The notes under the pieces are model-generated. The model was not told the origin of the DNA. It did not search any database and was given only the letters and a program-made list of their open reading frames with translations. Shown piece by piece: positions 22,184 through 40,173 of a DNA stretch of 64,000 nucleotides. The DNA lies in assembly GCA_021295965.1 (NCBI GenBank), contig JAGWBI010000004.1:33831-97830 (forward strand). The letters are read 5' to 3'. Source of the stretch: Dehalococcoidia bacterium (GTDB lineage: Bacteria; Chloroflexota; Dehalococcoidia; Lucifugimonadales; UBA3495). Both the position numbers and the translations under genes were made by a program. Position 1 is the first letter of the stretch. Every line of letters begins with the position of its first letter.

Positions 22184-22341
22184 GACAATGCCTCACCCGG
22201 CCCCTTCGCTACGGAAGCGGGCTACACTGTACCAGTATAGCAAGTATGCCACCGATACGTCGGTGAGCCCAAATCGGATTGCCCGACGTTTTCGCCGGCA
22301 TGGTCTTTTTGTCAGTGCGCCGATCCGGAGGCAGCTCGCAG

Positions 22342-24879
22342 CTAGCCACGTTCCAAGCGCGCCAGGCCCACCAATAACCGTTTCAGGCCGGCGCCCGCAA
22401 AGTTCACGGTAGCCTGTTCGGTGTCGCCGGCGCCGTCGACTTCCTGAACCACGCCTTCCCCGAAAGTGGGATGGCGGACGATTTCGCCCACCGCCAGGGG
22501 TACACGCTCCGGTGTGTCGACAGAAGCGCCTGGCCGGCTGGAAGTCCATTCGGTAAGACGCTCATCGATATTGCCTCGGAGGCGGCCTCCCGTCGCCTCG
22601 CCTCCGGCGTCGGTACCTTCACCCGGCCGCGTGCGCGAGGCTCGCCTGGACTGTCCGTAGGAACCGCCTATCACCGCGTCGGCGTTCCGCGACGGGCGGG
22701 ATGCGTTCAATCCATGAGATTCGGCGCGGGAACCAGGCGGTCGATCAATAGCCGCGGAGGCCAGCGCTTCCTCCGGGAGGTCTTCGAGAAAACGCGACGG
22801 CAGCGACACTCCACCCGAAGACGGATAACGCCTCCTGAAAGCTCGCAGCAGATAAAGGCGTTCTTTAGCCCTGGTCATGCCCACGTAGCACAAGCGACGT
22901 TCCTCTTCGATCTCGGCCAGTGTATCCATGGAACGACTGTGGGGCAGCAGCCCTTCCTCCATTCCGGCCATCATCACAACCGGGAACTCCAGCCCTTTGG
23001 CCTGATGTAGGGTGATCAAGGTGAGCGAATCATCGGACTGTTCGTAAGCGTCCACGTCGGAGACCAGGGAAACCCGCTCCAGAAACGCGCTCAACCCGTC
23101 GGCGGAACCGTCGCCCGGTGGACCGTAGTCTTCAGCCAAAGCGCGCAACTCCAGGATGTTTTCCCATCGCTCGTCGCCGTCATCCTGGGCATTGATGTGT
23201 TTGGCCAACCCGGTCATGTCCAATGTGCGATCAAGGAGGTCCGGGACACCCAGCTCGCGGGAGGCGTCAGCGAGGCGATCCAGGGTAACGGACAAATCGG
23301 CGATTGACCGTGCCGCGCGGGCCGTTACTGGAATGGGACATGGCGCCCCGTCCGTCCGGGCCGCGGCGATTTCCCGCATCGCCTGTCTGGTCGTGGCTTC
23401 GCGCTGGGTCGCGAAGTTTGTCAGTTGCTGAACGGATTTGGCGCCGATGCCCCGAGGAGGCTGATTAATGATGCGTCGCAGGCTGACTTCGTCATCAGGG
23501 TTGAAAATCACCCGAAGGTAGCCCACTGCATCCTTGATCTCCTTGCGGTGGTAGAAACGCACACCGCCCACCAGCCGGTAGGGTATTCCCTGGCGCATGC
23601 ACTGATCTTCAAAGGCGCGGCTTTGGGCGTTGATGCGGTACATGATGGCGCAGTCGCCGGACCGGTATTCGCCGGTTCGGGTGAGGCGGCCCACCTCATC
23701 CACAGCCCAGAGGGCTTCATCTTCCTCGCTGAAAGCTTCGTGCAGCGTGACGGGTCGCCCCGTTGGATTTTGCGTAAATAGCGGGCGTTCAATCCGCTCC
23801 GTGTTGATGGCGATGACACCGGCGGCGGCGTTGAGGATGTTTTTGGTGGAGCGATAGTTTTCGCCCAGGCTGATAACCGTGGCGTCGGGGAAATCGGTCT
23901 GAAAGCTCAGGATGTTCCGGATGTCGGCGTTACGCCACGAGTAGATGCTCTGGTCCGGGTCTCCGACGACGCACAGGTTCCGATGTTGTCCGGTGAGCAG
24001 CCGGGCCAGACGGTACTGCGCGACATTGGTGTCCTGAAACTCGTCGATGAGCAGGTAGCGGTATCGGGTGTGGTACTGTTCCTGAACGTCGGAGACATCC
24101 TCCAACAGTTGGGCAGTCCGCATCAGGAGGTCGTCGAAATCCAAAGCGTTTTGTCGCGTCAGCGCCTCCTCGTAATAGCGATAGACGCGGGAGCAGGTCT
24201 CCACCCAATGAGCGCCATATTCGTCCTCGGCGTCATAGGCTGTTTGAGCCATACGGCGGGCGTCCTGGAGGTTGCTTTTGGCGGCGGAAATCCGCGAGAG
24301 AATAGCTCTGGGGATATATCGTTTACTATCCACGTCGGCCAGCTGCATCGCGGACTTGAGCGCGTCCAACTGATCGTCCTGATCGTAAATGGTGAAGTTA
24401 CGATCGAGGCCGATACGTTCGCCGTGTCGGCGAAGTATGCGGGCACAGACAGCGTGGAAGGTGCCCATGGTGACGGCCTCGCTGCGGCCGAGGAGCAAAC
24501 GATCGAGGCGGTCCCGCATTTCCCGGGCAGCCTTGTTCGTGAACGTAACGGCCAATATCTGCCAAGGGTTAACGCCACGTTCTCCAACCAGATAAGCGAT
24601 ACGGTGCGTGATAACGCGGGTTTTGCCGGAACCGGGACCGGCGACTATGAGGAGAGGTCCCTCGGTAGTGACGACCGCCTGCTCCTGGGCCTCGTTGAGC
24701 CCTTGCAGGACAGCGGCGCTGGAAATTGAGGGATCGTCGGACTTACGCCCGTCCCCGTCGTAGTCTGCCAATTCGGGCGCGTCCCAAAATGGAGAGGAGG
24801 GCGGTTCTTCCCAGTATGGAGCAGACGGTGGAGCATCTTCGGATGGTATATGCTCCGAAAATTGGGACTGCAACGCCAT
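22342..24879 (-). CDS. pcrA: UvrD/PcrA-type superfamily 1 DNA helicase
   Basis: 'NEAQEQAVVTTEGPLLIVAGPGSGKTRVITHRIAYLV', 'LLIDEFQDTNVAQ', 'VVGDPDQSIYSWRNAD', 'LITLHQAKGLEFPVV'. Confidence 0.95.
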   Translation of the reverse strand: MALQSQFSEHIPSEDAPPSAPYWEEPPSSPFWDAPELADYDGDGRKSDDPSISSAAVLQGLNEAQEQAVVTTEGPLLIVAGPGSGKTRVITHRIAYLVGERGVNPWQILAVTFTNKAAREMRDRLDRLLLGRSEAVTMGTFHAVCARILRRHGERIGLDRNFTIYDQDDQLDALKSAMQLADVDSKRYIPRAILSRISAAKSNLQDARRMAQTAYDAEDEYGAHWVETCSRVYRYYEEALTRQNALDFDDLLMRTAQLLEDVSDVQEQYHTRYRYLLIDEFQDTNVAQYRLARLLTGQHRNLCVVGDPDQSIYSWRNADIRNILSFQTDFPDATVISLGENYRSTKNILNAAAGVIAINTERIERPLFTQNPTGRPVTLHEAFSEEDEALWAVDEVGRLTRTGEYRSGDCAIMYRINAQSRAFEDQCMRQGIPYRLVGGVRFYHRKEIKDAVGYLRVIFNPDDEVSLRRIINQPPRGIGAKSVQQLTNFATQREATTRQAMREIAAARTDGAPCPIPVTARAARSIADLSVTLDRLADASRELGVPDLLDRTLDMTGLAKHINAQDDGDERWENILELRALAEDYGPPGDGSADGLSAFLERVSLVSDVDAYEQSDDSLTLITLHQAKGLEFPVVMMAGMEEGLLPHSRSMDTLAEIEEERRLCYVGMTRAKERLYLLRAFRRRYPSSGGVSLPSRFLEDLPEEALASAAIDRPPGSRAESHGLNASRPSRNADAVIGGSYGQSRRASRTRPGEGTDAGGEATGGRLRGNIDERLTEWTSSRPGASVDTPERVPLAVGEIVRHPTFGEGVVQEVDGAGDTEQATVNFAGAGLKRLLVGLARLERG

Positions 24880-26914: not shown

Positions 26915-28348
26915 ATGCCGCCATCCCTGATCCTGCGTATTACAGATAGCGTCTCCGGCCGAACTGCGGCTCTGCGGCTGGACTGCCCCGCTGACCAGGC
27001 GGCCCCGTTGGGTCGTTTGCTGGAACGCTACTTGAGAGACGCGCCCAACGATGACCGCCTGATCCGGACCGGGGCGGTTACGACTGACGGTTTGCTATCC
27101 TTGCGGAACCTGCAGGATTTGGTGTATCGCTCCGACGACTCCGGCCGGCTAACCGAGATTTTCGCGGGCTTGAAGTTTCTCCAGGAGGGTAGGACAGCCT
27201 GCCTTGCCCAGCCGGCGTCGATACAGTCGGCGGCGGCCGGCGAAGTTCCTCTGGAATTGATCGATGTGACGGTGGAACGCACTGACGCCGGTTACGACCG
27301 CAACTGGACCGGTTTTCACCGGCGCCGTTGGAACCACGATGCGCATTTTTATGAAGACTTCGTCCGCGACGCTGTGGCTAAGGCATACGGTCCGAAAGAA
27401 AGTGAACGGGTTTTGCGTATGGACACGCCCGGCCGGCAACGAAAGTTGATTCGCGCGCTGGCGTTGCGCATCTGGAACAGTGATTTCGAAAACTACTCGC
27501 GTTTCTCAAACGAAGGCTTGCGGTTCAAGGCCGGCGACGAGACGGTGCGGAACATTGCCGCGGACGCCGGCGGTATCTGCACCGAGAAGGTGCAAGCGTT
27601 GAAGTTCCTTACCGACCACGACCGGCTGGAGTCGGAATACCTGCTGGGCGGTCCAAATGCGCCAGGGCCGTTTCCGGCCGACCGGTTGCGGGAAATGCTT
27701 AACACCTTCGATTTCCGCTTCGCGCAGCGCCACATGCGCTACTGGCAACACGCCGCCCTGCTGTACTGGGTGGATGGCGAGCCTCTGTTGGTGGACGCCA
27801 CCAACGGCAACATCCCCTTTCTTTTTCTCCAAGGCGATGCGGCCCAGCGGCTGTTGCGCGACGACGCGGCAGGAAATCGCCCCAGCGTGCCGGTGCAGAT
27901 GGTGGCGGAAACGGAAGACTATTACTATCACCGGGTCGAACAGGACATTCCGCAAAACCTGTTTTTCGCCCTTGAAGGCTGGCTGGACGACGCTGACCTG
28001 GTGCAAGTGTTCGAGAACGAACTCGGTCTCTACCTGTCGGAGCGGCACTACGTGATGCCGCTGCTCTATCGTAGCGACAGAGAATTCCGGCGTTCTCAAC
28101 AAAGGTACGAGGAACTCTGCCTAAACGCCGGTTTTCGCGTTGACGTGAGCGCGGACTGGAACCTGGATGGACCAGTGGGGCAGGAACTTGCCGCCGTAAA
28201 TCCGGCATTGGCGGCGCGCCTGCTGGCGGCAGAAGACAGACTGGTTGCCCGCTACGACTGGTGGGATTGTCCGGGACACCGGTCCGGCTTGGCCGTAATC
28301 GCGCTGAAACCGTCCGCCGGCACCTCACTTGAAGGGCGATCGCCATGA
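26915..28348 (+). CDS. Transglutaminase-like fold protein (putative Cys-His-Asp triad)
   Basis: 478 aa; 'AGGICTEKVQALKFL' (Cys) and 'YWQHAALLYWVDGEPLLVDATNG' (His, Asp) in transglutaminase-core order; stop overlaps the next start (ATGA). Confidence 0.6.
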   Translation: MPPSLILRITDSVSGRTAALRLDCPADQAAPLGRLLERYLRDAPNDDRLIRTGAVTTDGLLSLRNLQDLVYRSDDSGRLTEIFAGLKFLQEGRTACLAQPASIQSAAAGEVPLELIDVTVERTDAGYDRNWTGFHRRRWNHDAHFYEDFVRDAVAKAYGPKESERVLRMDTPGRQRKLIRALALRIWNSDFENYSRFSNEGLRFKAGDETVRNIAADAGGICTEKVQALKFLTDHDRLESEYLLGGPNAPGPFPADRLREMLNTFDFRFAQRHMRYWQHAALLYWVDGEPLLVDATNGNIPFLFLQGDAAQRLLRDDAAGNRPSVPVQMVAETEDYYYHRVEQDIPQNLFFALEGWLDDADLVQVFENELGLYLSERHYVMPLLYRSDREFRRSQQRYEELCLNAGFRVDVSADWNLDGPVGQELAAVNPALAARLLAAEDRLVARYDWWDCPGHRSGLAVIALKPSAGTSLEGRSP

Positions 28349-31300
28349 GCGCAATGCCAGCCATGCCCAGGCTCCGCCGGACCGGGATGCGGCGCCCGCG
28401 CTCGCAGGAAGACCGGATCCTGCGAAGCATTCGGGCGACCCGGCGCGACTGGCGTATCGCCGATTGGTCAGACCGAGAGTTGCGGAAGGCCGTCGGCGAT
28501 CTGAGGGATGAGTCTGCGTCCTCTGATTCAATACCGGAGGATACGCTGGTCCGTGTGTTCGCGGTGGTTGACGAGACGATCCGACGCCGCCTGGGGTTGT
28601 GGCGAGTCTTCGACCTACCGGATGCCGACGAGCCAAGCATCGCAGACGCCCGCCGCAAGCTGGCCGCCGCCGGTCGAGGCCGCTACCCAGGAAGCGACTT
28701 GCTCCTTCCGGCGGAGTTTTACCAGACAGCTCGCCGCCGGCAAGCCTGCGACGCCGAGGTACTGCGCTTTCGCCCCACCGACGAGCAATTGCTGGCCGGC
28801 CTGCACCTGTGCCACGGCCGGGTCGTGGAAATGGCGGCCGGCGAGGGCAAGACCGTTGCTGCCGCCTTCCCGGCGGCGTTGTACGGTCTATTGGGTCGCA
28901 CCGTCCGCGTCATTACCGCCAACGATTACCTTGCCGCCAGGGACGCCGAACTGCTGGCGCCCGTGTACCGAGCATTGGGGCTTACCGTCGGATCAGTGCT
29001 GGACCACATGGCCGGACCCGAGCGTCGGGAGTCCTACACCCACCGGATCATATACGGCACGCTACGCGAGTTCGCCTTCGACTACCTGCGGGACCGGATG
29101 GTGATGTCGCCGGACGAGCAAATCCAGGGGCCGCTGGACGTTGCTATCATCGACGAGGCGGACCAGACGCTGTTGGATGAGGCGGTCACTCCGATGGTCA
29201 TTGCCGGCGCGCCTATCCTCAGCCGGCGTATGATTATTCGCGCCAATCGGGCGGTGCGGGAGCTCGCGGTGGAGCAGGCCCGGTTCGCGGAGGAATGCCG
29301 GAGCGAGCTGGAACAACGCGTTGCAAGCGGCTCGGCCGACGACGCGTCGGCGATGCTGCTGGCCCGGGCGTTGCTGGCCCAACCCGACGCTGGAGAGACA
29401 CTTCGCTTGGCTGCTGACCATCCACGCCTCCGGCGCCGGGCCCGGTCCTTCATTGATACGGATGGATCCGGCAAACCCCGCCCGGAGGTTGAAGCAGGTC
29501 TGTATTGCGCGGTGGATGCCGAGAGAGGCAGCTTGAGCCTGCTGCCCGAGGGCGTAGCATTCCTGGAGGCTCGTCTGGGCGATTTGTACTCCACCAACAC
29601 CGAAGACCTTAATCCAGGTTCGCGGCGAGCCGCCCAACGAATCGATCTGGTCAACCAAGTGCATCAGCTGCTGCGGGCCCACCTGCTGCTGCGCCGCGGC
29701 GTCGAGTACGTGGTGGACGATGACCGGGTGGTGCTGGTGGATCGGGATACGGGCCGTCCCCGGCCCGACACTCACTACCAGGATGGGCTGCACCCAGCGG
29801 TGGAAGCCAAAGAAGGCGTGACAATTCACCCCGACCACCGGAACCTCGGGGAGATCAGTGTCCCGGGTTTCCTCCGCCGCTACCGGAGCCTGTCCGGTTT
29901 GACCGGTACGGCTGAGGCGGCAACCGACGAATTCCGCCGCCTTTATCAATTGGAAGTGGCCGTGGTTGCAGAGACCCGCCAAACGCATCGCCGGGATCTG
30001 CCCACTCGCGTGTACGCTAACTCCGAGGACCAACTGAGCGCAGTCGTGGACGAGGTACGAAACTGCCACCGGTCAGGGCGCCCGGTCTTGGTGGCCGCAA
30101 GGACAGTGGACCAGTCGGAGATCATCAGCCAACGGTTAAGCGATGCGCGTATCGGGCACCGTCTGCTCAATGCGGCAACCACTCCGGAGGAAGCGGACAT
30201 CGTTCGTCAGGCCGGACAGCCGGGCGCGATCACCGTGGCGACTAACATGGCCGGTCGCGGTACCGATGTCGTCATGCCCGGTGGCCTGGATCAGCGTTTA
30301 CTTGAGCGTTTCGTCTCCATACTGGAACAGACCATCGCCGCTGACCCGGACCGCGCGGCGGTGGAAGTTCGGGCCAATACCTCCGCCGAAGCCGACCTGC
30401 TGGCGCAATCACTTGAGGCGAACCCACTGCTGTCCGCCCGGCCCGCCGGCGGCGACCGATTGACGATCCGTTCCAGCGCGGCGAAGCGGCCGCCGCCACC
30501 AGCCATCGCGCTGGAATTCGGGCTGGGCTTCCACCTGGTCAGCGCCGAGTTCAACGACGCGCCTCGAGTTGCGCTTCAACTGCAGGGACGCAGCGGCCGG
30601 CAAGGCGCGTTCGGCTCCACCCGGAGCTTGCTCGTGAGGTCGGATCGATGGCTGGCCGGCCTCGAGTACGGGTCAGCCACGGTGGATCAAGCCGGCCGCG
30701 TTTGCTGGGAAGGGCCGGAGCTGGAACGGCAGTTGCGGCGGCGGCGCGAGGAAGCCCAGCAAGAAGATGCCAGCGCGCGCGCCCATTTGCTGGAATATGC
30801 CGCAGTGTTGGATAACCACGCCGATGTTTACTACAAAATCCGGGAGGAGACCCTCGTCGCCCGGCCCGATCGTTTAGTACGGTGGGCCGACGACGCGGCG
30901 CAGGCCACAGCCGAGGATCTGGCCCGCAAGCATTTTCCCAGTCTCGTCGGGGACGACTATGCCCGGCGCTTCGATTGCCTGGCGGCAGAAATGCGGGTCC
31001 GGTACAACGTCGCTGCTGATCCAGCCCGGGGCCATCCCCTGGATGACCTGGGAAGCGCGTTGGCTGAATTATTGCGGCAACGGCTTGCGGAACGACGGGA
31101 ACAACTGGGCGCGGCCCGGTTCAGCGAGTTGTCCCGAATGCTCCTTTTGCAAGTCGGCGATGAACTGTGGGAAAATCACCGGGCCAACTTGAGGAACACG
31201 GCCGCCGCGTCCCGGTTGGATGCGCGGGCGCCGAAAACAGCCATAGCCGAGTACATAATCGCCGCCGACGATGCCTGGCAACACTTCCGTGACGAAGTGT

Positions 31301-31419
31301 CCCATCGTTTCGTGTACCAAATGTTGACATTTCCCATCACCGGATTGACTGGCGCATCGGATAGCGACCACACCCCGCCGTTGGCGGTGGATCCGCGGCT
31401 TGCCGAACTCGTACCCTGA
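28345..31419 (+). CDS. Divergent second SecA (SecA2-like) ATPase lacking a SEC-C zinc tail
   Basis: 'EMAAGEGKTVAAAFPAALYGL', 'NDYLAARDAELLAPVYRALGLTVG', 'IIDEADQTLLDEAVTPMVIAG', 'VEAKEGVTI', 'ATNMAGRGTDVVMPGG'; ends DPRLAELVP without CxC motif. Confidence 0.9.
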   Translation: MSAMPAMPRLRRTGMRRPRSQEDRILRSIRATRRDWRIADWSDRELRKAVGDLRDESASSDSIPEDTLVRVFAVVDETIRRRLGLWRVFDLPDADEPSIADARRKLAAAGRGRYPGSDLLLPAEFYQTARRRQACDAEVLRFRPTDEQLLAGLHLCHGRVVEMAAGEGKTVAAAFPAALYGLLGRTVRVITANDYLAARDAELLAPVYRALGLTVGSVLDHMAGPERRESYTHRIIYGTLREFAFDYLRDRMVMSPDEQIQGPLDVAIIDEADQTLLDEAVTPMVIAGAPILSRRMIIRANRAVRELAVEQARFAEECRSELEQRVASGSADDASAMLLARALLAQPDAGETLRLAADHPRLRRRARSFIDTDGSGKPRPEVEAGLYCAVDAERGSLSLLPEGVAFLEARLGDLYSTNTEDLNPGSRRAAQRIDLVNQVHQLLRAHLLLRRGVEYVVDDDRVVLVDRDTGRPRPDTHYQDGLHPAVEAKEGVTIHPDHRNLGEISVPGFLRRYRSLSGLTGTAEAATDEFRRLYQLEVAVVAETRQTHRRDLPTRVYANSEDQLSAVVDEVRNCHRSGRPVLVAARTVDQSEIISQRLSDARIGHRLLNAATTPEEADIVRQAGQPGAITVATNMAGRGTDVVMPGGLDQRLLERFVSILEQTIAADPDRAAVEVRANTSAEADLLAQSLEANPLLSARPAGGDRLTIRSSAAKRPPPPAIALEFGLGFHLVSAEFNDAPRVALQLQGRSGRQGAFGSTRSLLVRSDRWLAGLEYGSATVDQAGRVCWEGPELERQLRRRREEAQQEDASARAHLLEYAAVLDNHADVYYKIREETLVARPDRLVRWADDAAQATAEDLARKHFPSLVGDDYARRFDCLAAEMRVRYNVAADPARGHPLDDLGSALAELLRQRLAERREQLGAARFSELSRMLLLQVGDELWENHRANLRNTAAASRLDARAPKTAIAEYIIAADDAWQHFRDEVSHRFVYQMLTFPITGLTGASDSDHTPPLAVDPRLAELVP

Positions 31420-31462
31420 TTCCCGCCTTCCGACCCTTTTCCGACCCAAGGAGTTGACCGAT

Positions 31463-32338
31463 ATGTCGCCACGAATCAGCCGAATGGCCCTGGCGATGTC
31501 CGCCGGCAGCGTGTTGGCAGGCGCGCCCCTGTTGGTTGCCTGCGGAGATTCTTCCAGCGGCCCCACCTACGACCAGTGGGCCGCTACCGACGGGGCTGCC
31601 GGCCGCATCAACCTGGACGACGTGCAGCTGGCATTCCAGGAGTCCAGCAGCGCCACCGAGTTTGAACGCCGGGTAAACGAGATCTATGAAGGCGACGGCA
31701 TCATCCTGATCCGAGCCTCCCAGGACGGCAACCGTCTGACCCTGGAGGGTTGGGAAGACCTGGACGCCAACAACCAAATCGACGACGCGGCGGACGATCG
31801 GCTCTTTGCCATCATCAAAGAGGACGAACAGCACCAACTGCAGGGCTATCACGCCAATTCGTACTATCAAAGTCACTTCGGCGCTGGCGACTTTCTCTTC
31901 ACCTACTTGCTGATCAGCAGCCTGAACCGGGGTCCCTACTTCTACCAGACGATTCCCGACCGCGCGACCGACATCCGCCGGGACCGGGGTTCGTATCGCG
32001 GCTCCAGTCGCTACGACACCCAGTTGAACCGCAACCGGCAGTACACCTCCCGGCAGCAGACTTTCGCCGGCTCCCGATACCAGGAGGCCGGGCGGGGCGT
32101 CAGTTCCAGCCGGCAGACTTACCAGCAGACCCAGAGATCCTCCGGCGCCTTCCGCACCAGCAGCTCCGTGACGCGCAGCAGTTCGTCCATCTCGCGCAGT
32201 TCCACCATCGGCGGCGGAAGCGGATCGACCATATCCCGGAGCAGCAGCCTGGGCGGTTTCAGCGGCGGTGGCGGCCGGGTTCATTTCCGCAACCGCTCGT
32301 ATGGAGACGGTGGAACTCGCCCCGCCTGGCTGGCCTGA
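31463..32338 (+). CDS. Lipoprotein with Gln/Ser/Arg/Gly-rich low-complexity C-terminus
   Basis: Signal peptide with lipobox 'LLVAC'; AAGGAG RBS; tail 'RNRQYTSRQQTFAGSRYQEAGRGVSSSRQTYQQTQRSSGAFRTSSSVTRSSSS'. Confidence 0.75.
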   Translation: MSPRISRMALAMSAGSVLAGAPLLVACGDSSSGPTYDQWAATDGAAGRINLDDVQLAFQESSSATEFERRVNEIYEGDGIILIRASQDGNRLTLEGWEDLDANNQIDDAADDRLFAIIKEDEQHQLQGYHANSYYQSHFGAGDFLFTYLLISSLNRGPYFYQTIPDRATDIRRDRGSYRGSSRYDTQLNRNRQYTSRQQTFAGSRYQEAGRGVSSSRQTYQQTQRSSGAFRTSSSVTRSSSSISRSSTIGGGSGSTISRSSSLGGFSGGGGRVHFRNRSYGDGGTRPAWLA

Positions 32339-32342
32339 GCCA

Positions 32343-33416
32343 ATGGGAGCCTCCGATGCCGGCGGTCTTACCGTATCGGCATGGACTGACCAGCTGCCGG
32401 CCGACACGACGCTGTACGTCGAATTGCCGGGCGAAACCCGTCGCCTGACCCTGCGCCAGTTATTGGGCCGGCTGTTTCCTGGGGATGCCGGCAGGCAAGC
32501 CGAGGTCGAAGCCCGGTTGGACCGAAACGCCAATCCCGACCTGCCGGCCTGTTACGCCGTGTTGCTTGCGCTGGTGGAGCAGTGGCGGTCCGGTCTTTGC
32601 CGGCTGTCGCTGACGACGGGGCGCGGTTGGGGCCGGCCGGCCCATCCCGACGACCCGGTATCCGCCCACCTGCAACTGCCGCCCTTGTGTCGTCGGGTCG
32701 GCCAGTGCGACGGCGCTGACCTGACGCTGACGATGCTGCCCGCCTATCGGCCCCTGGAATGGGTAGTAGCCCGGGGATATGCGGAAGATCGTCAACAACT
32801 TCTGGATTGGATGCAGTCGTGCGCCCTGCTCTACTTTGTGGACAAGCATGGCTGCGCTGTACCGCCGCCCGCCGACCCGTCCCTGTCCGAACCATGCCGG
32901 CCGGTGGTGTCCGGTCTGTACCGTCGCCGTTGCCTGCGGGCGGCAGCAGACGGGAACCATTCCGAGGTGGCGGCGACGGGCCGTAGGCTGATCGGCGCAA
33001 TGCTCGAGGAAACCGAGGCGTTGATCGACGGTTTCGATCTATTCAAGGACGCCCGCTGGAACGAGGACGAAGGGGCGGCGGAGTTCGACACCGGCCGCGG
33101 CGCCGACTTGCGGGTGGTGGCCATCATCGCCGAGGGTCTGGACCCGGTTCGCTCCGTGTTCCTGCTGCGACTCTACGACGGCAGCCTTGACCCTTTTGCC
33201 GACCAATGGCAGCGGTTGGTGGGCGACCCGGCGTTTTTTGACCGTCTCCTGGAGCCGGTGGTTAACCGCGACATGCCACCACCTCCCGAGGAGATCCTCA
33301 CCGCAATCATGGAGGACGGCTACGCCCTGCTGGACGCTCGGGCCGAAGCGGCTGCCGCCAGCGTGGCCCAAGCCGAAATTCAGCGTCGTCTGTTGGATCT
33401 GGAGGAGGGTATCTAG
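32343..33416 (+). CDS. Hypothetical protein, no family recognised
   Basis: 357 aa ORF following the lipoprotein by 4 nt; consistent high-GC codon usage; start approximate. Confidence 0.65.
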   Translation: MGASDAGGLTVSAWTDQLPADTTLYVELPGETRRLTLRQLLGRLFPGDAGRQAEVEARLDRNANPDLPACYAVLLALVEQWRSGLCRLSLTTGRGWGRPAHPDDPVSAHLQLPPLCRRVGQCDGADLTLTMLPAYRPLEWVVARGYAEDRQQLLDWMQSCALLYFVDKHGCAVPPPADPSLSEPCRPVVSGLYRRRCLRAAADGNHSEVAATGRRLIGAMLEETEALIDGFDLFKDARWNEDEGAAEFDTGRGADLRVVAIIAEGLDPVRSVFLLRLYDGSLDPFADQWQRLVGDPAFFDRLLEPVVNRDMPPPPEEILTAIMEDGYALLDARAEAAAASVAQAEIQRRLLDLEEGI

Positions 33417-33435
33417 GGCGTGATGTCAACACGGC

Positions 33436-34317
33436 TTAGATCACCAGGAGCAATATCAGCGCCGAGCTGACCACTACCGCAGTCTCCACGAAAGCCACGC
33501 CTACGTTGCGCCCCGCCGCCACCTGCTCCGAAACCCGGGTGCGAGGCAACAACACCAGGTCCACCGCCAGCCGCAATACGTACAGCAATACGAAGCCCAC
33601 AACGGAGTAAATGACGAACTCCAGGATGCCTTCCCGCCAGCCCACGAAATCTCCGAATGTCGCCTTGAAGGTGACCAGGCCAATTGCGACCAGGTTGCCA
33701 CCCAGGGCGATGCCCACCGCCGGGTTGTCTTGTTCAATCTCGTCGTGGATGTTGAAGGGAGTGGTCCATTCGTAGAACAGGGCGAACAAGACGAGGACGA
33801 CGAGGCCAAGTCCAAAGAACGCCAGCGCATTCAACGGACCGCCCTGGCCGGCGATAGCTCCCGCGATAACCAGACCGGACGCGACGTTCACGCCGAATTC
33901 CGCCGCTGCCGCCCCAACGTTCTGGTCCTCGATTATCTCGCGTTCCAGCTCAAACCGGTACAGCACCAGGCGGTCGGTAACCAAACGCATCAGGTTCAGT
34001 GCGACGATTCCGGCCAGTGAGTACAGGAAGACCCACAGCACTTCCAACCCGAATGCGCGGTCAATTCCCAATCCCCTGTAAACTCCAACGCCCAAAGGTT
34101 GGTACACGGCTCCGAGGAAAACCAGGATAACGCCGGCCAGGTATCCCGAAAGCCGCAGCGCCACCGCGAGGTTGCTTTTGGCTACGATCTCCTCCTCAAT
34201 GCGGTGGCGAGTCACCGCGTCCCGCGCCAATTTAGCGATGGTCAATACCACAAACCCCAGCGCCACGTAAATCAGCCCTCGGGGGAGGTAGATCAGTATG
34301 TCAATCAGCAAGTCCAC
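33436..34317 (-). CDS. Duplicated DUF350 (YjfL-like) membrane protein
   Basis: 293 aa; four internal repeats ('KSNLAVALRLSGYLAGV', 'DQNVGAAAAEFGVNVASGLVIAG', 'QDNPAVGIALGGNLVAIGLV', 'GRNVGVAFVETAVVVSSALIL'), ~8 TM. Confidence 0.8.
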   Translation of the reverse strand: MDLLIDILIYLPRGLIYVALGFVVLTIAKLARDAVTRHRIEEEIVAKSNLAVALRLSGYLAGVILVFLGAVYQPLGVGVYRGLGIDRAFGLEVLWVFLYSLAGIVALNLMRLVTDRLVLYRFELEREIIEDQNVGAAAAEFGVNVASGLVIAGAIAGQGGPLNALAFFGLGLVVLVLFALFYEWTTPFNIHDEIEQDNPAVGIALGGNLVAIGLVTFKATFGDFVGWREGILEFVIYSVVGFVLLYVLRLAVDLVLLPRTRVSEQVAAGRNVGVAFVETAVVVSSALILLLVI

Positions 34318-34348
34318 TTGGCATGCTCTCCATTCAGTCGTATCGCCG

Positions 34349-34975
34349 TTACGTCTCTGACCGCTGCCCCGGATACACCAGCACGTTGTCAGGATCTATG
34401 ATTTCGCTGAAGTGGGCTTCAAAAGGGATGCCCTCGAACTTGGTGATGGCCAGCATATCGCGCCCATCATCTGCCACGAACTCCCACACGTAGAAGCCCT
34501 CTCCTTCCTCGTCCTGGTCGTTCGGGTAATGGAAGGCCTCGAAACTGTTGCGGTATGCGTAGCGTCGCTCTTCAATCTCCACACCGTTGTCGATTGAGTG
34601 CGCCTCGTCCAACGTGATCAGGTCGTCCTCGGTCAGCCCGATGGCGTCCAACCCCACGGCTCGGCGGTCGGTGGAGGCGGTGACGAAAAGGTCCCGACCT
34701 TCCCCGGAACATTCCAGCCGGACCTGCCGGCGGGCATCGGTCGCCACAATTTCACGCCATTCCAAGCCGTTGCCGGCGTAGCGGTGGACCTGCTCGATCA
34801 CCAGGTAGGCTTCGTCCAGGTCCAGGCTCAGACCTTGCACGACCACCACGTCTCCGACCTGCGCGGCGCGGATGCTGTTGTCCACAACCAGGCGGTCGGC
34901 CATTCCCGACGGCCGGTTATTGCCGCGGCCCATGAGTCGACCGAACAGCCGGCCCAACGATGATTGCTTGCTCAT
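34349..34975 (-). CDS. DUF4178-like protein
   Basis: 209-codon ORF; 'QVGDVVVVQG...YLVIEQVHRYAGNGLEWREI' resembles DUF4178; adjacent to DUF350. Confidence 0.6.
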   Translation of the reverse strand: MSKQSSLGRLFGRLMGRGNNRPSGMADRLVVDNSIRAAQVGDVVVVQGLSLDLDEAYLVIEQVHRYAGNGLEWREIVATDARRQVRLECSGEGRDLFVTASTDRRAVGLDAIGLTEDDLITLDEAHSIDNGVEIEERRYAYRNSFEAFHYPNDQDEEGEGFYVWEFVADDGRDMLAITKFEGIPFEAHFSEIIDPDNVLVYPGQRSET

Positions 34976-35151
34976 TGTGGACTCCCCAACCAAGGAAAAC
35001 GGGAACGTACGAATCTCGACAGCGGCGCGACCGCCGGATGCGCCATTATAGCCCAGGACCGCACCGTTCAGAGAAAGGCCCGGCTTGACCGCCGCCGGCA
35101 GCGACTATTATCCTCTATTCACACCTACCGCCAATGAATGGAGGAAGCCCG

Positions 35152-35328
35152 ATGGGGGGATTTAACAAAACCGCCGGCATCTTGCTGGGATTGGCCCTGC
35201 TGGCCGTGGGCATACTGATGGTCCTTGGCGTGTTGGATTTCCTGCTCAGGATCGCCGGCGTGCTTTGTATCCTTGCCGCGGTCGTGTTGTTGGGCATGGC
35301 CTTCTTTGGTTCCAGACGCGGCTATTGA
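35152..35328 (+). CDS. Small two-TM membrane protein
   Basis: 58 aa, GGAGG RBS upstream of ATG at 35152; 'AGILLGLALLAVGILMVLGVLDFLLRIAGVLCILAAVVLLGMAFFG'. Confidence 0.6.
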   Translation: MGGFNKTAGILLGLALLAVGILMVLGVLDFLLRIAGVLCILAAVVLLGMAFFGSRRGY

Positions 35329-35399
35329 CCCGCCAGCCAATCGGCTGAACGTATCCGGCGCACGTAGTACCGGATGATTGACGAAAGGAGAGTGAGAGC

Positions 35400-36122
35400 A
35401 TGGGAATGTTTTCCCGAATGTCCACCATTGTGAAATCAAAAATGAACCGCATATTGGACTCCGCTGAGGATCCGCGGGAGACCCTGGACTACTCCTACGA
35501 GAAACAGCTGGAAATGCTGCAGAACGTCAAGCGCGGCGTGGTAGAAATGGTCACCGCCAAGCGACGTATCCAGCAGCAGGCCGACCGGGTTAAGGAGAAC
35601 ATCACCCGCCTGGACCGACAGGCTCGCCAGGCGGTAGAAGCCGACCGGGACGACCTCGCCCGATTGGCCCTGGAGCGCAAGCAGGCTGCCCTGGCCGAGC
35701 TGGAGGGGCTGGACGAACAGATCGCCGGCATGGAGCGGGAGCAGGAGAAGTTGACCGAGGCCGAAAAGCGCCTCCAGGCCAAGGTGGATGCCTTCCGCAA
35801 CAAGAAGGAAATCATCAAGGCGCAGTATTCGGCGGCCCAGGCACAGGTCCGCATCGGCGCCGCGCTGGGTGGCATTTCCGAAGAAATGGGCGACGTTTCG
35901 CTGGCCGTGCAGCGCGCCGAGAACAAGACTGACCAGATGAGGGCCAAGGCCGGCGCCATCGACGAGTTGGTGGAATCCGGCGTGCTGGACGACATCACCG
36001 GCCCCCAGGACGACATCGAGCGGGAATTGGCGAAGATTTCGGCTTCCAGCACTGTTGAAGCCGAATTGGCCGCGCTGAAAAACCCCAACGGGACAACTCC
36101 CTCCAGCGGCGGAAGCGCCTGA
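35400..36122 (+). CDS. pspA: PspA/IM30 (ESCRT-III-like) family protein
   Basis: 'MGMFSRMSTIVKSKMNRILDSAEDPRETLDYSYEKQLEMLQNVKRGVVEMVTAKRRI'; long coiled coil. Confidence 0.92.
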   Translation: MGMFSRMSTIVKSKMNRILDSAEDPRETLDYSYEKQLEMLQNVKRGVVEMVTAKRRIQQQADRVKENITRLDRQARQAVEADRDDLARLALERKQAALAELEGLDEQIAGMEREQEKLTEAEKRLQAKVDAFRNKKEIIKAQYSAAQAQVRIGAALGGISEEMGDVSLAVQRAENKTDQMRAKAGAIDELVESGVLDDITGPQDDIERELAKISASSTVEAELAALKNPNGTTPSSGGSA

Positions 36123-36202
36123 CCGATGACTCGCTACGGCGGATCCCGCCAAAAACCACTGGTCGCCGTCTGACCTTTTTCTGTGATACCGGAGCGCTGA
36201 AC

Positions 36203-36481
36203 GTGATTGTACGGATACTTGGCGAGGGACAATTCAACCTGCCCGGGTCGGCCATCGACGACCTCAACGACATTGACAACCGCATGGTGGAGGCGGTGGC
36301 CGCTGAAGACGGCGCCCAATTCCAATCGCTGCTCGATGAGATGTTCCAGCTGGTGCGGGACCGGGGTGAACCTCTGCCCCTTGACGAATTGGTGGAATCA
36401 GACCTGATCCTGCCGGAAACGGACCTCACGCTGGACGAAGCGGAGCATATTTTCATTGGGGACGGCCTGTTGCCCGGGTAG
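36203..36481 (+). CDS. pspAA: PspA-associated protein PspAA
   Basis: GTG start; 'MIVRILGEGQFNLPGSAIDDLNDIDNRMVEAVAAEDGAQFQSLLDEMFQLVRDRGEPLPLDELVESDLILP' typical PspAA; directly after pspA. Confidence 0.85.
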   Translation: MIVRILGEGQFNLPGSAIDDLNDIDNRMVEAVAAEDGAQFQSLLDEMFQLVRDRGEPLPLDELVESDLILPETDLTLDEAEHIFIGDGLLPG

Positions 36482-36502
36482 CGGGCGGTCGCCCCGCAAT
36501 CC

Positions 36503-36529
36503 GTCATTCGCGCGAAAGCGGGAATCCAG
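36503..36529. repeat. dRS3/REP-like element, second copy, overlapping the DUF3326 stop codon
   Basis: GTCATTCGCGCGAAAGCGGGAATCCAG; compare reverse complement of 13911-13937. Confidence 0.6.
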
Positions 36530-37865
36530 TAACCTCCGCCCCGGTCAGCGGCCGGCGCACCGCTGCCGGGTCCACGCCGGCGCGCAGCGCCGCCATCACG
36601 CCGGCGGCCTCCCAGTAGTTCTCCACAATATGTAGCTGGCCAGCAGCCCAGGGAAGTTCCGTCAGGTCATTGCTCATCAGGTTGCGATTCTCTCGCACGG
36701 CGATGGTGGAGATACCCTGCTCCAGGGCGGCCAGGGTCGGCAACCCCACGCATCCGTCGGGGATCACCAGGCACGACACGTCGGCCGCGTTGAGAACGCT
36801 GTGATGCACCCGGGCTTCCGGATCGGTGACCAGACGAGGGCTGCGCTGTAACCCTTTCAGGATGCACTGGATCATGGCCAACGATACGGCCTCCGCTGCC
36901 ATGCGCGGATCGACCACGCCAGGGTCGGCGTTGGCAATCTCTCGGCTGTCCAGCATGGGAGCATGAGCCGAGGGCACGTCGTACAGGGATGAAATCGCAT
37001 GGGTCAGCATCGCCTCGACGCCGCCCCAGGGGTTGACCATATCGCCCATGCGGTCAAAGTACTCGAAATGATAGCCGGCCGGCACTCCGATCAGGGATGT
37101 GATGGCCACGGCGTCATATTGGTCTCGGCGCCGATCCAATTCCGTAAACAGCGGTTCCAACCCCCGTACCCGGCCGGCAGCCCGCCCGGACCGGGCGTAG
37201 GTGGAGTACATCTCCAGGCCACTCTCCAGCCGCAGCACCTGCGGCTGGACCAAGCCATAGGACGTCCGGGCCGCGTTGATCGAATTGATGGCCGCATGGA
37301 CGAAGAGTTCGTCGTCATGGGGGCCGATCACCACCAGCAAACGATTGTTGCGGATCCGCTGCAGCCCCAGTTGACCCTGCATCAGCCGGGCGATCACGCT
37401 GCCCTCCACATAAAGAGAGTTAGCCGGCATCTCAATGACGTCCGATGCGTTCACCACGTTGGGATGGGTGATCAGCGTGTCGCAGACCGAGGCCAGCAGG
37501 GCGGCCACCGGCATGGCATCCCCGGCGTGACCGCCGATCTCCGCTCCCACCCCGGTGGGAACCAGTAGGACCGAGTTGAACTGCTCGGCGTTCTCCACCG
37601 GTCGCCGGTCCAGGCGGAATATGGATGCCGCCGGTCGGTGGTCCTCCAACCCGCGCACCAGGCCAACTTCGCAATGATGGCCTTCCTGACCGGAATTTGG
37701 GATCCGCACCTTGCCCGTGACCGCCAGCCGGATGGGAACCTCGCCCGGCTGCAGTTGACGCATCACGGCCTCGCAAAGGCTCTGCCGCAGGTTCGTTATC
37801 GACCCGGTGGTGGGGAGAACCAGCTCGCGTTCGTACAGTTCGGCAGTCGCCATGACGTTGCTCAT
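36504..37865 (-). CDS. DUF3326 family protein
   Basis: 'SVLLVPTGVGAEIGGHAGDAMPVAALLASVCDTLITHPNVVNASDVIEMPANSLYVEGSVI'; ATGA overlap with the upstream decarboxylase gene. Confidence 0.8.
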   Translation of the reverse strand: MSNVMATAELYERELVLPTTGSITNLRQSLCEAVMRQLQPGEVPIRLAVTGKVRIPNSGQEGHHCEVGLVRGLEDHRPAASIFRLDRRPVENAEQFNSVLLVPTGVGAEIGGHAGDAMPVAALLASVCDTLITHPNVVNASDVIEMPANSLYVEGSVIARLMQGQLGLQRIRNNRLLVVIGPHDDELFVHAAINSINAARTSYGLVQPQVLRLESGLEMYSTYARSGRAAGRVRGLEPLFTELDRRRDQYDAVAITSLIGVPAGYHFEYFDRMGDMVNPWGGVEAMLTHAISSLYDVPSAHAPMLDSREIANADPGVVDPRMAAEAVSLAMIQCILKGLQRSPRLVTDPEARVHHSVLNAADVSCLVIPDGCVGLPTLAALEQGISTIAVRENRNLMSNDLTELPWAAGQLHIVENYWEAAGVMAALRAGVDPAAVRRPLTGAEVTGFPLSRE

Positions 37866-39058
37866 GCTCCCCATCGCGCTGCGAAATCGTCGTACGTGTA
37901 GCGTCGTTTCATCAGCAGTTCACCACCCGAAGTGAGGGCATAAATCGTCGGAAGGTTGACGCCGTTAAACGTATGGGCCTTGACGAGGGTGTAGGCGCCC
38001 ATGTTGAGAAACATTACCCGGTCACCCACCGCCAATGGATGGTCAAAGCTGTACTCCCCAAAGACGTCCCCGGCGAGGCAGGTGCATCCGGCCAGAGTAC
38101 AGGCCCAATCGGCGTCGTCCCGATGGCCCAGAACGTCCGGTTCATACTGGTACTCGAACGCCTCCGGCATATGGTTCACCGTCGTATCCAGGATCGCGGT
38201 TTTTCCGCCGCTCCGCGTTTGGATCTCCAACACGGTGGATACCAGGTAGCACGCTGTCCGTATCAGCGCGGCGCCCGGTTCTATGATCGTCTCCAGGCTA
38301 CAGCCTCGCTGCAGAAAATCTATCGTGCGGTACAGGGGCGTCATGTCGAGGGCGTCGTCGCCGTATTCGTCTTCAAACAGATATCCGCCGCCCAAGTTGA
38401 TCCACCGCAGCCGGCCGTCTTCCAACCGGGGACCCAAACCACGACGGATTTTATTCACGGTGGTTTCAAGCTGGCCGAAGTCGGTGGCGTCGCAGTTGGT
38501 GTGGAGCAACAGACCGGATACGGAATCGCCCTCGTCCAAAATTTGTGCCACCGTTGACAGCGGCTCACCTAACCGGGATGCCGGCCGGCATGGGTCATAC
38601 CGCGCATCACCGATGAAAGACAGTTCCGGGTTCACCCGCAGGCCGACCTGGACCGCCGGATGCAATACGTCTCGATGGGATCGCAATTGGTTGACGGAGT
38701 TGAAGGCGAAGTAGTCGCAGAGCACGCCCGAATCAGCCGCATCCTGGGGCCGCAGCCCCGCGGTGGTGAAATGCAACGTGCCCCGGTCGCGCAGGACCGA
38801 CCGCGCCAGCTTCGCCTCAAAGAGCGAACTGACAGCGAATCCATCCAAATGGGGCGCCATCAGCTCCAGCGCGTCGCGGAAGCAGAAGGACTTTACCGCA
38901 AAAAGGAGCCGGCAGCCGCTGCTTTCCCGGATCTCTGCGCCCTTCCCCAGCAGCCGGAGGATGCCCGCCTCGTCGTAGATAAATGCGGGAGTTTCCAACG
39001 GCACGTCGCCGAAGAGAACGGATCCCAGTCGTTCAGGCCACTCTGTGACAACGTTCAT
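37862..39058 (-). CDS. nspC: Carboxynorspermidine decarboxylase-like PLP enzyme (fold type III)
   Basis: 'CRLLFAVKSFCFRDALELMAPHLDGFAVSSLFEAKLARSVL...LHFTTAGLRP' typical of NspC; 'LRWINLGGGYLFE'. Confidence 0.8.
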   Translation of the reverse strand: MNVVTEWPERLGSVLFGDVPLETPAFIYDEAGILRLLGKGAEIRESSGCRLLFAVKSFCFRDALELMAPHLDGFAVSSLFEAKLARSVLRDRGTLHFTTAGLRPQDAADSGVLCDYFAFNSVNQLRSHRDVLHPAVQVGLRVNPELSFIGDARYDPCRPASRLGEPLSTVAQILDEGDSVSGLLLHTNCDATDFGQLETTVNKIRRGLGPRLEDGRLRWINLGGGYLFEDEYGDDALDMTPLYRTIDFLQRGCSLETIIEPGAALIRTACYLVSTVLEIQTRSGGKTAILDTTVNHMPEAFEYQYEPDVLGHRDDADWACTLAGCTCLAGDVFGEYSFDHPLAVGDRVMFLNMGAYTLVKAHTFNGVNLPTIYALTSGGELLMKRRYTYDDFAARWGA

Positions 39059-39246
39059 GTGTCGCCAGCTCTGCTAATTGTGTTGGTCGCCAGTAAAAGT
39101 AAATGGAGTGCTCGTACACCGGCGTTGCTGGTTGCCACGGCGGCATCACGATGGAATTGCCGCATCAAGGGCCGCAATTGTACAGTGGCCGCACCGACCC
39201 AAATCAACACGCTAACCCGGTTAGCCCAGTAAAGGATGGTAACAGA

Positions 39247-40173
39247 ATGGACCCGGCCACGAGTTCCGACGTTGGCGCCGGCCGCCTTGCCGGCCTGCGC
39301 AGTCGAGTGTACGCCTTGTTGGAAGCCCCGGACCTCCTTCGGCGGGGTGGCGCTGGCGATGGCCCGTATCTGCGCGGCTCCGTCATACCGGAGATATTCC
39401 TGGTATGCGTAATCCTGGTCAACACTGTCTCGCTGATCCTCTGGACCGTGCCCACTCTGAAAGTCGCTTATTCCCTCTGGTTCCACGTGGTGGAGTACTG
39501 CACCGTGTCGGTGTTCGTAGTGGAATACGGATTGCGGTTTTGGGCGGTCGCTGAAGCCAACCCAAATGGAAATACATGGCGACAGCGTTTGCGGTTCGTG
39601 CTTTCGCCGACTGGCCTGATTGACGCGGCGGCCATCCTCCCGTCGTTGGTGGCAATCGCGGTGCTAGCAATCTCCGGAGACAGCCTCAGTCTCTCGTTTC
39701 TGCTGGCGATACGCCTGCTGACCCGCTCGGCCAAGTTGGCGCGTTACTTCCCCGGCGGGCGTCGGCTGGGGATGGCGCTCCGGCTGAAAGCAGGCCAACT
39801 GCTCACTGCGGTGGCAGGTCTGCTGGTGGTGTTGGTCATCGCCGCCGCGCTGATGTATTTTGCGGAAGCAGCAGCCCAGCCCGAGGTTTTCAATAGCATT
39901 CCGGCGGCGATGTGGTGGAGCGTAGTAACCCTCACCACGGTCGGCTACGGCGACACCGTACCGGTGACCGGCATTGGGCGGATGCTGGCCGCGGTGATTG
40001 CGGTGTTGGGCATCGGCCTGTTTGCTCTTCCGGCAGGCATACTAAGCGCCGCCATGATGGAGGCGAACGCAGCCGATGAGGACCAAGGCGAAGCAAACCA
40101 GCCAGCCGGCGTTTGCCCTCACTGTGGCGGAGAACTGGGAACCGACGCGGCAGTTGCTGGCGCCAGGGTTTGA
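39247..40173 (+). CDS. Voltage-gated-type potassium channel
   Basis: Six TM; selectivity filter 'MWWSVVTLTTVGYGDTVPVT'; S4-like 'SLSFLLAIRLLTRSAKLARYF'. Confidence 0.88.
   Translation: MDPATSSDVGAGRLAGLRSRVYALLEAPDLLRRGGAGDGPYLRGSVIPEIFLVCVILVNTVSLILWTVPTLKVAYSLWFHVVEYCTVSVFVVEYGLRFWAVAEANPNGNTWRQRLRFVLSPTGLIDAAAILPSLVAIAVLAISGDSLSLSFLLAIRLLTRSAKLARYFPGGRRLGMALRLKAGQLLTAVAGLLVVLVIAAALMYFAEAAAQPEVFNSIPAAMWWSVVTLTTVGYGDTVPVTGIGRMLAAVIAVLGIGLFALPAGILSAAMMEANAADEDQGEANQPAGVCPHCGGELGTDAAVAGARV

Follow-up and report, generated by a model that had tools for sequence, protein, structure and literature searches.

A conserved gene module joining a second SecA, a lipoprotein and a Cys-His-Asp enzyme to DUF350 and PspA genes in Dehalococcoidia

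A group of neighbouring genes in the genome of a marine, SAR202-type Dehalococcoidia bacterium, encoding among others a second SecA, a lipoprotein, an enzyme of the NAT/transglutaminase superfamily (hereafter TG-like) and a DUF350 membrane protein, is a real, nearly all-or-none module that goes beyond chance adjacency and suggests a previously undescribed way to make and maintain the cell envelope. The genes lie in a window of 64,000 nucleotides, the whole stretch of DNA analysed here, on one contig (C33) of a 3.23 Mb genome in 86 contigs; the whole analysis uses metagenome assemblies and prediction. A first-pass annotation of this DNA had described intact, packed genes on alternating strands, and every ORF it named was found whole at its coordinates and on its strand (Table 1). 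Between the lipoprotein and DUF350 genes there is an extra conserved gene, whose product we call protein X. Since the canonical SecA of the source genome is also encoded within the window (19508-22183, minus strand), the SecA of the module is a true second SecA, referred to below as SecA2. The canonical SecA gene and a UvrD helicase gene (19508-24879, minus strand) sit directly to the left of the module, an adjacency that looks incidental because in genomes of the same genus, e.g. G010 and G007, the module is far from secA1.

Table 1. Genes of the module, with positions counted from the first nucleotide of the window
Feature	Coordinates	Strand	Evidence
NAT/transglutaminase-superfamily (TG-like) enzyme, 477 aa	26915..28348	+	No Pfam/NCBIfam match
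Second, divergent SecA (SecA2-like), 1024 aa	28345..31419	+	Pfam SecA domains (SecA_DEAD 3e-75)
Lipoprotein	31457..32338	+	27-member alignment, invariant lipobox Cys29 (alignment numbering), no family
Protein X, conserved, cytosolic, 357 aa	32343..33416	+	No Pfam/NCBIfam family
DUF350 (YjfL-like) membrane protein, two repeats	33436..34317	-	Pfam PF03994 1.5e-51
DUF4178-like cytosolic protein	34349..34993	-	Pfam PF13785 8e-5
Small membrane protein, 64 aa	35134..35328	+	BLAST/HMM matches in L014-L016, L018, L038
PspA	35400..36122	+	Pfam PF04012 1e-23
PspAA	36203..36481	+	Pfam PF22743 4e-33
DUF3326 protein	36504..37874	-	Pfam PF11805 9e-89
NspC-like PLP decarboxylase	37862..39058	-	Pfam Orn_DAP_Arg_deC; NCBIfam nspC 9e-79, 265 bits
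6-TM K+ channel	39103..40173	+	Pfam Ion_trans 3e-26

The genes from 26915 to 39058 recur jointly, with their order largely kept, in about 40 Dehalococcoidia/SAR202 genomes. The proteins of these genomes often share no more than 40-50% identity, and gene order is conserved in loci at 40-60%. A contig scan that used only two exact peptide patterns gave 44 matches, all titled Chloroflexota, Chloroflexi, SAR202 or Dehalococcoidia. The 44 loci that we fetched come from metagenome assemblies labelled Dehalococcoidia, Chloroflexota and SAR202, and 39 of them also carry SecA2 on the fetched stretch. The common order runs TG-like, SecA2, lipoprotein and X, then convergent DUF350 and DUF4178 genes and, in some loci, PspA and PspAA; the DUF3326 and NspC-like genes are placed either at the far end of the locus or close to the TG-like gene. 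Single steps of this order are tightly kept: the gene after SecA2 encodes the lipoprotein in 36 of 37 loci and the one after the lipoprotein encodes X in 32 of 35, DUF350 is convergent with X in 26 of 28, a DUF4178-like gene adjoins DUF350 in all 24, and PspA precedes PspAA in all 14. In several loci the TG-like gene and SecA2 are separated by genes for an RCK-type K+ channel, an AMP-binding ligase, a GNAT-like protein and a further protein whose family is unknown. L078, which is more distant and comes from a different order of the same class, keeps TG, ligase, GNAT-like, the unknown gene, SecA2, lipoprotein and X. The genes flanking the module vary between locus groups. In a set of 399 evenly drawn Chloroflexota genomes there was no occurrence outside the source genome and G181, which is of the same order, and no plasmid-borne copies of the TG-like protein or the lipoprotein were found. 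In L046 (3482-4297) and, as cluster u1, in other loci, a conserved protein of about 270 aa, which has no Pfam family and resembles part of an adenylating enzyme, is encoded after the TG-like gene.

Presence and absence were compared in 60 genomes, the window's own and 59 relatives, a sample weighted to one family. Besides the window's own genome, 20 of the 59 relatives have the TG-like protein. Fisher tests, which ignore phylogeny, gave p 1e-14 for its association with SecA2 (both 19, TG only 1, SecA2 only 0, neither 39), 5e-11 for DUF350 (both 18, TG only 2, DUF350 only 2, neither 37), 7e-11 for DUF3326 (both 17, TG only 3, DUF3326 only 1, neither 38) and 7e-10 for the NspC-like gene (both 16, TG only 4, NspC-like only 1, neither 38); the counts for PspA are both 18, TG only 2, PspA only 5 and neither 34. 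Within the window's genus the whole set is present in four relatives (G001, G007, G010 and G012) and absent from nine, and G003, a single-contig, 99% complete genome of this genus, is module-free. Three genomes (G040, G045, G057) retain most of the module genes at sites far from one another, with the SecA2-lipoprotein pair unbroken. From one module protein to another, pairwise distances are correlated (r 0.71-0.92), as is expected under joint inheritance. DUF350 occurs without TG in G051, on a 28.6% GC contig (C2, locus L085) of a Chloroflexota assembly that is probably contamination; the operon on this contig is of the canonical lipoprotein-DUF350-spermine synthase-PspA type. A contig edge interrupts protein X in G017, where the absence of TG and SecA2 may therefore reflect the assembly and not the genome. 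The first-pass annotation had held that SecA2 and TG-like genes unlinked to PspA, DUF350 and NspC in other genomes would speak against it; when this was examined, linkage and co-occurrence were strong and the proposal was not refuted.

The 36 second SecAs form a single clade (support 1.0, stem 0.77), distinct from 14 SecA1 sequences of the same order, one of them truncated, and from E. coli SecA. SecA2 retains Walker A, Walker B and motifs III, V and VI and has no SEC-C zinc motif. Against the known SecA2 subfamilies it stays far below the cut-off in each case: 388 bits for TIGR03714 (cut-off 930), 366 for TIGR04221 (725), 428 for TIGR04397 (1085) and 305 for NF012136 (1100). No second SecY was found, each genome having one whether or not the module is present, and seeming additional copies are fragments at contig edges. 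With a single SecY per genome, SecA2 would have to share the housekeeping channel. In one genome (G040, locus L105) a truncated SecA-like ORF of 539 aa adjoins the canonical SecA.

The lipoprotein, which likely starts at the ATG near 31463, has no Pfam or NCBIfam family. Its lipobox cysteine is invariant in the alignment, and it contains an Asp/Asn-rich DLDANNQIDD loop and a Ser/Arg/Gly/Gln-rich tail (21% Ser, 14% Gly, 14% Arg). Four glutamines, Q57, Q89, Q189 and Q200, are kept in 23-27 of 27 sequences, and the mean conservation of the whole protein is higher than that of SecA2 (median distance 0.47 vs 0.62). Compared with 19 other putative lipoproteins, picked by regular expression from the fetched neighbourhoods, its signal peptide has a lower mean peak hydropathy (1.85 vs 2.94, p 5e-9) and more glycine in the h-region (1.97 vs 0.53, p 1.5e-6); since the control set is small and the module lipoproteins are mutually homologous and therefore non-independent, this weak, glycine-rich signal peptide is suggestive and not conclusive. 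The earlier proposal that a dedicated SecA helps to export the lipoprotein thus gains independent support from the adjacency of the two genes in 36 of 37 loci and from the atypical signal peptide. Two candidate relationships of the lipoprotein were tried and rejected. For membership of DUF1190, only 1 of 27 sequences gave a match, at E 0.12, with YjfM and YgiB ranking within shuffled controls and an hhalign probability of 0.5%, and homology with the lipoprotein of the canonical operon on the G051 contig gave no signal above shuffles.

In the TG-like protein a C222-H279-D294 triad, in the order Cys-His-Asp, is invariant across 38 sequences. The His-Asp spacing is 15 residues, as in NATs and unlike in mammalian transglutaminases. 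The AlphaFold2 model (pLDDT 90.1) finds its best PDB fold matches among the arylamine N-acetyltransferases (Foldseek E 2e-4, probability 1.0, with a query TM-score of only about 0.25), and transglutaminase folds match more weakly (best E 0.11). Sequence searches gave no Transglut_core Pfam match at E<=1, no NAT family match in Pfam or NCBIfam and no sequence relatives in the PDB. The triad is like that of arylamine N-acetyltransferases and NAT-like amide synthases, and the predicted fold may be as well; the enzyme differs from them by additional N- and C-terminal regions and by the lack of a family match. The original label, transglutaminase-like, is borne out by the invariant triad but not by the predicted fold, which appears nearer to NAT, nor by Transglut_core, and we prefer to speak of a NAT/transglutaminase-superfamily enzyme. 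No signal peptide was seen, so any action on the lipoprotein would take place before or during export, and the enzyme could also act on another target. For protein X, the AlphaFold2 model (pLDDT 91.9) has no significant PDB match (E at least 0.03), and PDB sequence relatives appear only at E>=0.25; weak suggestions from the model are that it may have a ubiquitin-like N-domain and a winged-helix-like middle. A common N-terminal domain in X and the TG-like protein was considered and discarded (hhalign probability 3%).

The NspC-like enzyme conserves the PLP lysine and a CLAGD motif and is confined to genomes carrying module genes; its full-length copies score 232-305 bits, all 18 under the nspC equivalog cut-off of 409. 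Matches to carboxynorspermidine (saccharopine-like) dehydrogenase are weak and partial in the source genome (G000; 28 bits), and strong ones in other genomes do not correlate with the module. Nearly all the genomes examined have a spermidine synthase, with or without the module, which makes a supply of polyamines likely in either case. Neither a spermine-synthase-like gene nor an ATP-grasp polyamine enzyme is in the window locus, which has the NspC-like decarboxylase instead; the spermine synthase of the source genome sits on a separate contig. The genomes with DUF3326 are almost identical to those with the TG-like gene.

Several known systems resemble parts of the module. Ravi et al. 2024 (PMC11237479) described PspA operons of more than one make-up: some contain DUF350 and DUF4178 along with genes for a lipoprotein and a spermine-synthase-like protein, and in others an ATP-grasp ligase and a K+ channel occur. 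Their text names neither SecA nor transglutaminase nor DUF3326. PspA, two-repeat DUF350, DUF4178, a lipoprotein and an amine/polyamine-type enzyme are common to those operons and to the module neighbourhood, whereas the CesT/Tir-like YjfI and the spermine synthase of the former are replaced here by PspAA and the NspC-like enzyme; no Pfam match to a CesT/Tir-like partner (YjfI/DUF2170) was seen among the window genes scanned. The E. coli yjfIJKLMC and ygiBC genes likewise combine PspA, DUF350, a lipoprotein and an amide-forming enzyme, but with an ATP-grasp ligase and no SecA where the module has a Cys-His-Asp enzyme and SecA2. The analogy with yjfJ/yjfL/yjfM drawn in the first-pass annotation holds for gene content and fails, on direct test, for homology of the lipoprotein with YjfM or YgiB. 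Overall, the earlier interpretation is partly supported. The streptococcal accessory Sec system (SecA2/SecY2/Asp/GspB) also has a second SecA adjoining one Ser-rich surface substrate, a Gly-rich signal peptide and a possible substrate-modifying enzyme at the locus. In Streptococcus gordonii, GspB is directed into the accessory Sec pathway by glycines in the core of its signal sequence, and its modification by Asp2 is coupled to export by this route (PMC5578698 and its ref. 26). The module differs in having no SecY2, no recognised Asp or glycosyltransferase genes and a small lipoprotein as substrate. A role in anti-phage defence was also considered and dropped, PADLOC giving no match, and in the open-access literature no relevant paper names SAR202 with SecA2 or transglutaminase. 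Our best reading is that the module is a Chloroflexota variant of the known PspA/DUF350/lipoprotein/amine-enzyme operons, to which a dedicated SecA, a cytosolic NAT/TG-fold (acyl/amide-transfer) enzyme, X and DUF3326 have been added.

For this variant we infer an export route, a chemistry, an adaptor role and an envelope-stress function. The second SecA motor would work with the ordinary SecY channel to export a single, specific lipoprotein, which its weak, Gly-rich signal peptide would withhold from the housekeeping SecA. A cytosolic thioester-type Cys-His-Asp enzyme would, before or during export, act on the lipoprotein itself or on a small molecule associated with it, using an amine or acyl group that may come from the NspC-like decarboxylase and DUF3326 and, in related loci, also from the AMP-forming ligase and GNAT-like protein. 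Protein X would be the likely adaptor between substrate and motor, and the exported lipoprotein, together with DUF350, DUF4178, PspA/PspAA and the K+ channel, would serve membrane integrity. We regard this explanation as a whole, i.e. dedicated export, cytosolic modification and membrane upkeep by PspA/DUF350, as having about an even chance of being right. Its strongest form, a new accessory secretion pathway in which a specialised SecA on an ordinary SecY reads a Gly-rich signal, exports a single lipoprotein modified in the cytosol by a NAT/TG-fold enzyme and feeds a PspA/DUF350 membrane-maintenance complex, is put forward only tentatively.

Chance adjacency, or vertically inherited synteny devoid of functional link, seems very improbable. 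All loci do come from one bacterial class and share ancestry, but gene order survives large divergence while the flanks change, the module is all-or-none inside one genus (G001, G007, G010 and G012 vs G003), and dispersed genes are still co-retained; the order kept across divergent loci and the near-matching presence and absence in 59 relatives argue for more than chance. Two other readings accept the module and concern its chemistry. The NspC-like enzyme could make a polyamine that a true transglutaminase joins to the conserved lipoprotein glutamines, the transglutaminase being a non-orthologous replacement of YjfC/YgiC. The gene content parallels that of E. coli yjfIJKLMC. In E. coli, YgiC/YjfC, adjoining DUF1190 lipoproteins, are annotated as peptide-spermidine ligases, and in the module Q57, Q89, Q189 and Q200 are conserved and the triad invariant; polyamine enzymes are recurrent in PspA/DUF350 operons (PMC11237479), and on an Ensifer plasmid an AdoMet decarboxylase and a spermine-synthase-domain protein adjoin DUF350. 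We nevertheless consider polyamination unlikely, as the predicted fold appears nearer to N-acetyltransferases, Transglut_core is not matched, the nspC equivalog score is missed and a clear carboxynorspermidine dehydrogenase was not found. Alternatively, the decarboxylase, DUF3326, AMP-forming ligase, GNAT-like and NAT-like proteins could make an amide metabolite, for which SecA2 and the lipoprotein would supply a surface receptor or binding protein. NAT/amide-synthase folds are indeed the best structural matches, and AMP-binding ligase and GNAT-like genes separate the TG-like gene from SecA2 in many loci, the most divergent one (L078) among them, but both are missing from the window locus and many others, and no conserved transporter or carrier protein was found, so that a small-molecule pathway appears equally doubtful. 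Under the export account favoured above, the module would represent, in a marine lineage most of which is uncultivated, a second design of substrate-dedicated SecA export that goes through the housekeeping channel. It would bear on the idea that PspA/DUF350 systems act by covalently modifying surface lipoproteins with amines or acyl groups. With a single lipoprotein, a single SecA and a single catalytic triad linked to DUF350, it provides concrete, testable partners.

The remaining genes are linked to the module with differing tightness. We know of no established mechanism for DUF350, DUF4178 or DUF3326, and the DUF4178 match is weak (23.2 bits, cut-off 25). The small 64-aa membrane protein is conserved within the genus, and some relatives have it in weakly conserved form. 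PspA is linked to the module in some loci and lies elsewhere in the genome in several others, so PspA and PspAA, earlier listed as module members, are present at the locus but only loosely linked. Similarly, the K+ channel, also counted as a member before, is present here, but the 6-TM type is found at such a position only within the genus (L014-L017), while many other loci have the different, RCK-type channel between the TG-like gene and SecA2. A partial second PspA-like ORF follows PspA in one locus (15911-16489 in L017, genome G007), and a zinc-ribbon-type and a thiolase-like protein are encoded side by side downstream of PspAA in two others (19678-21364 in L054 and 19699-21380 in L057).
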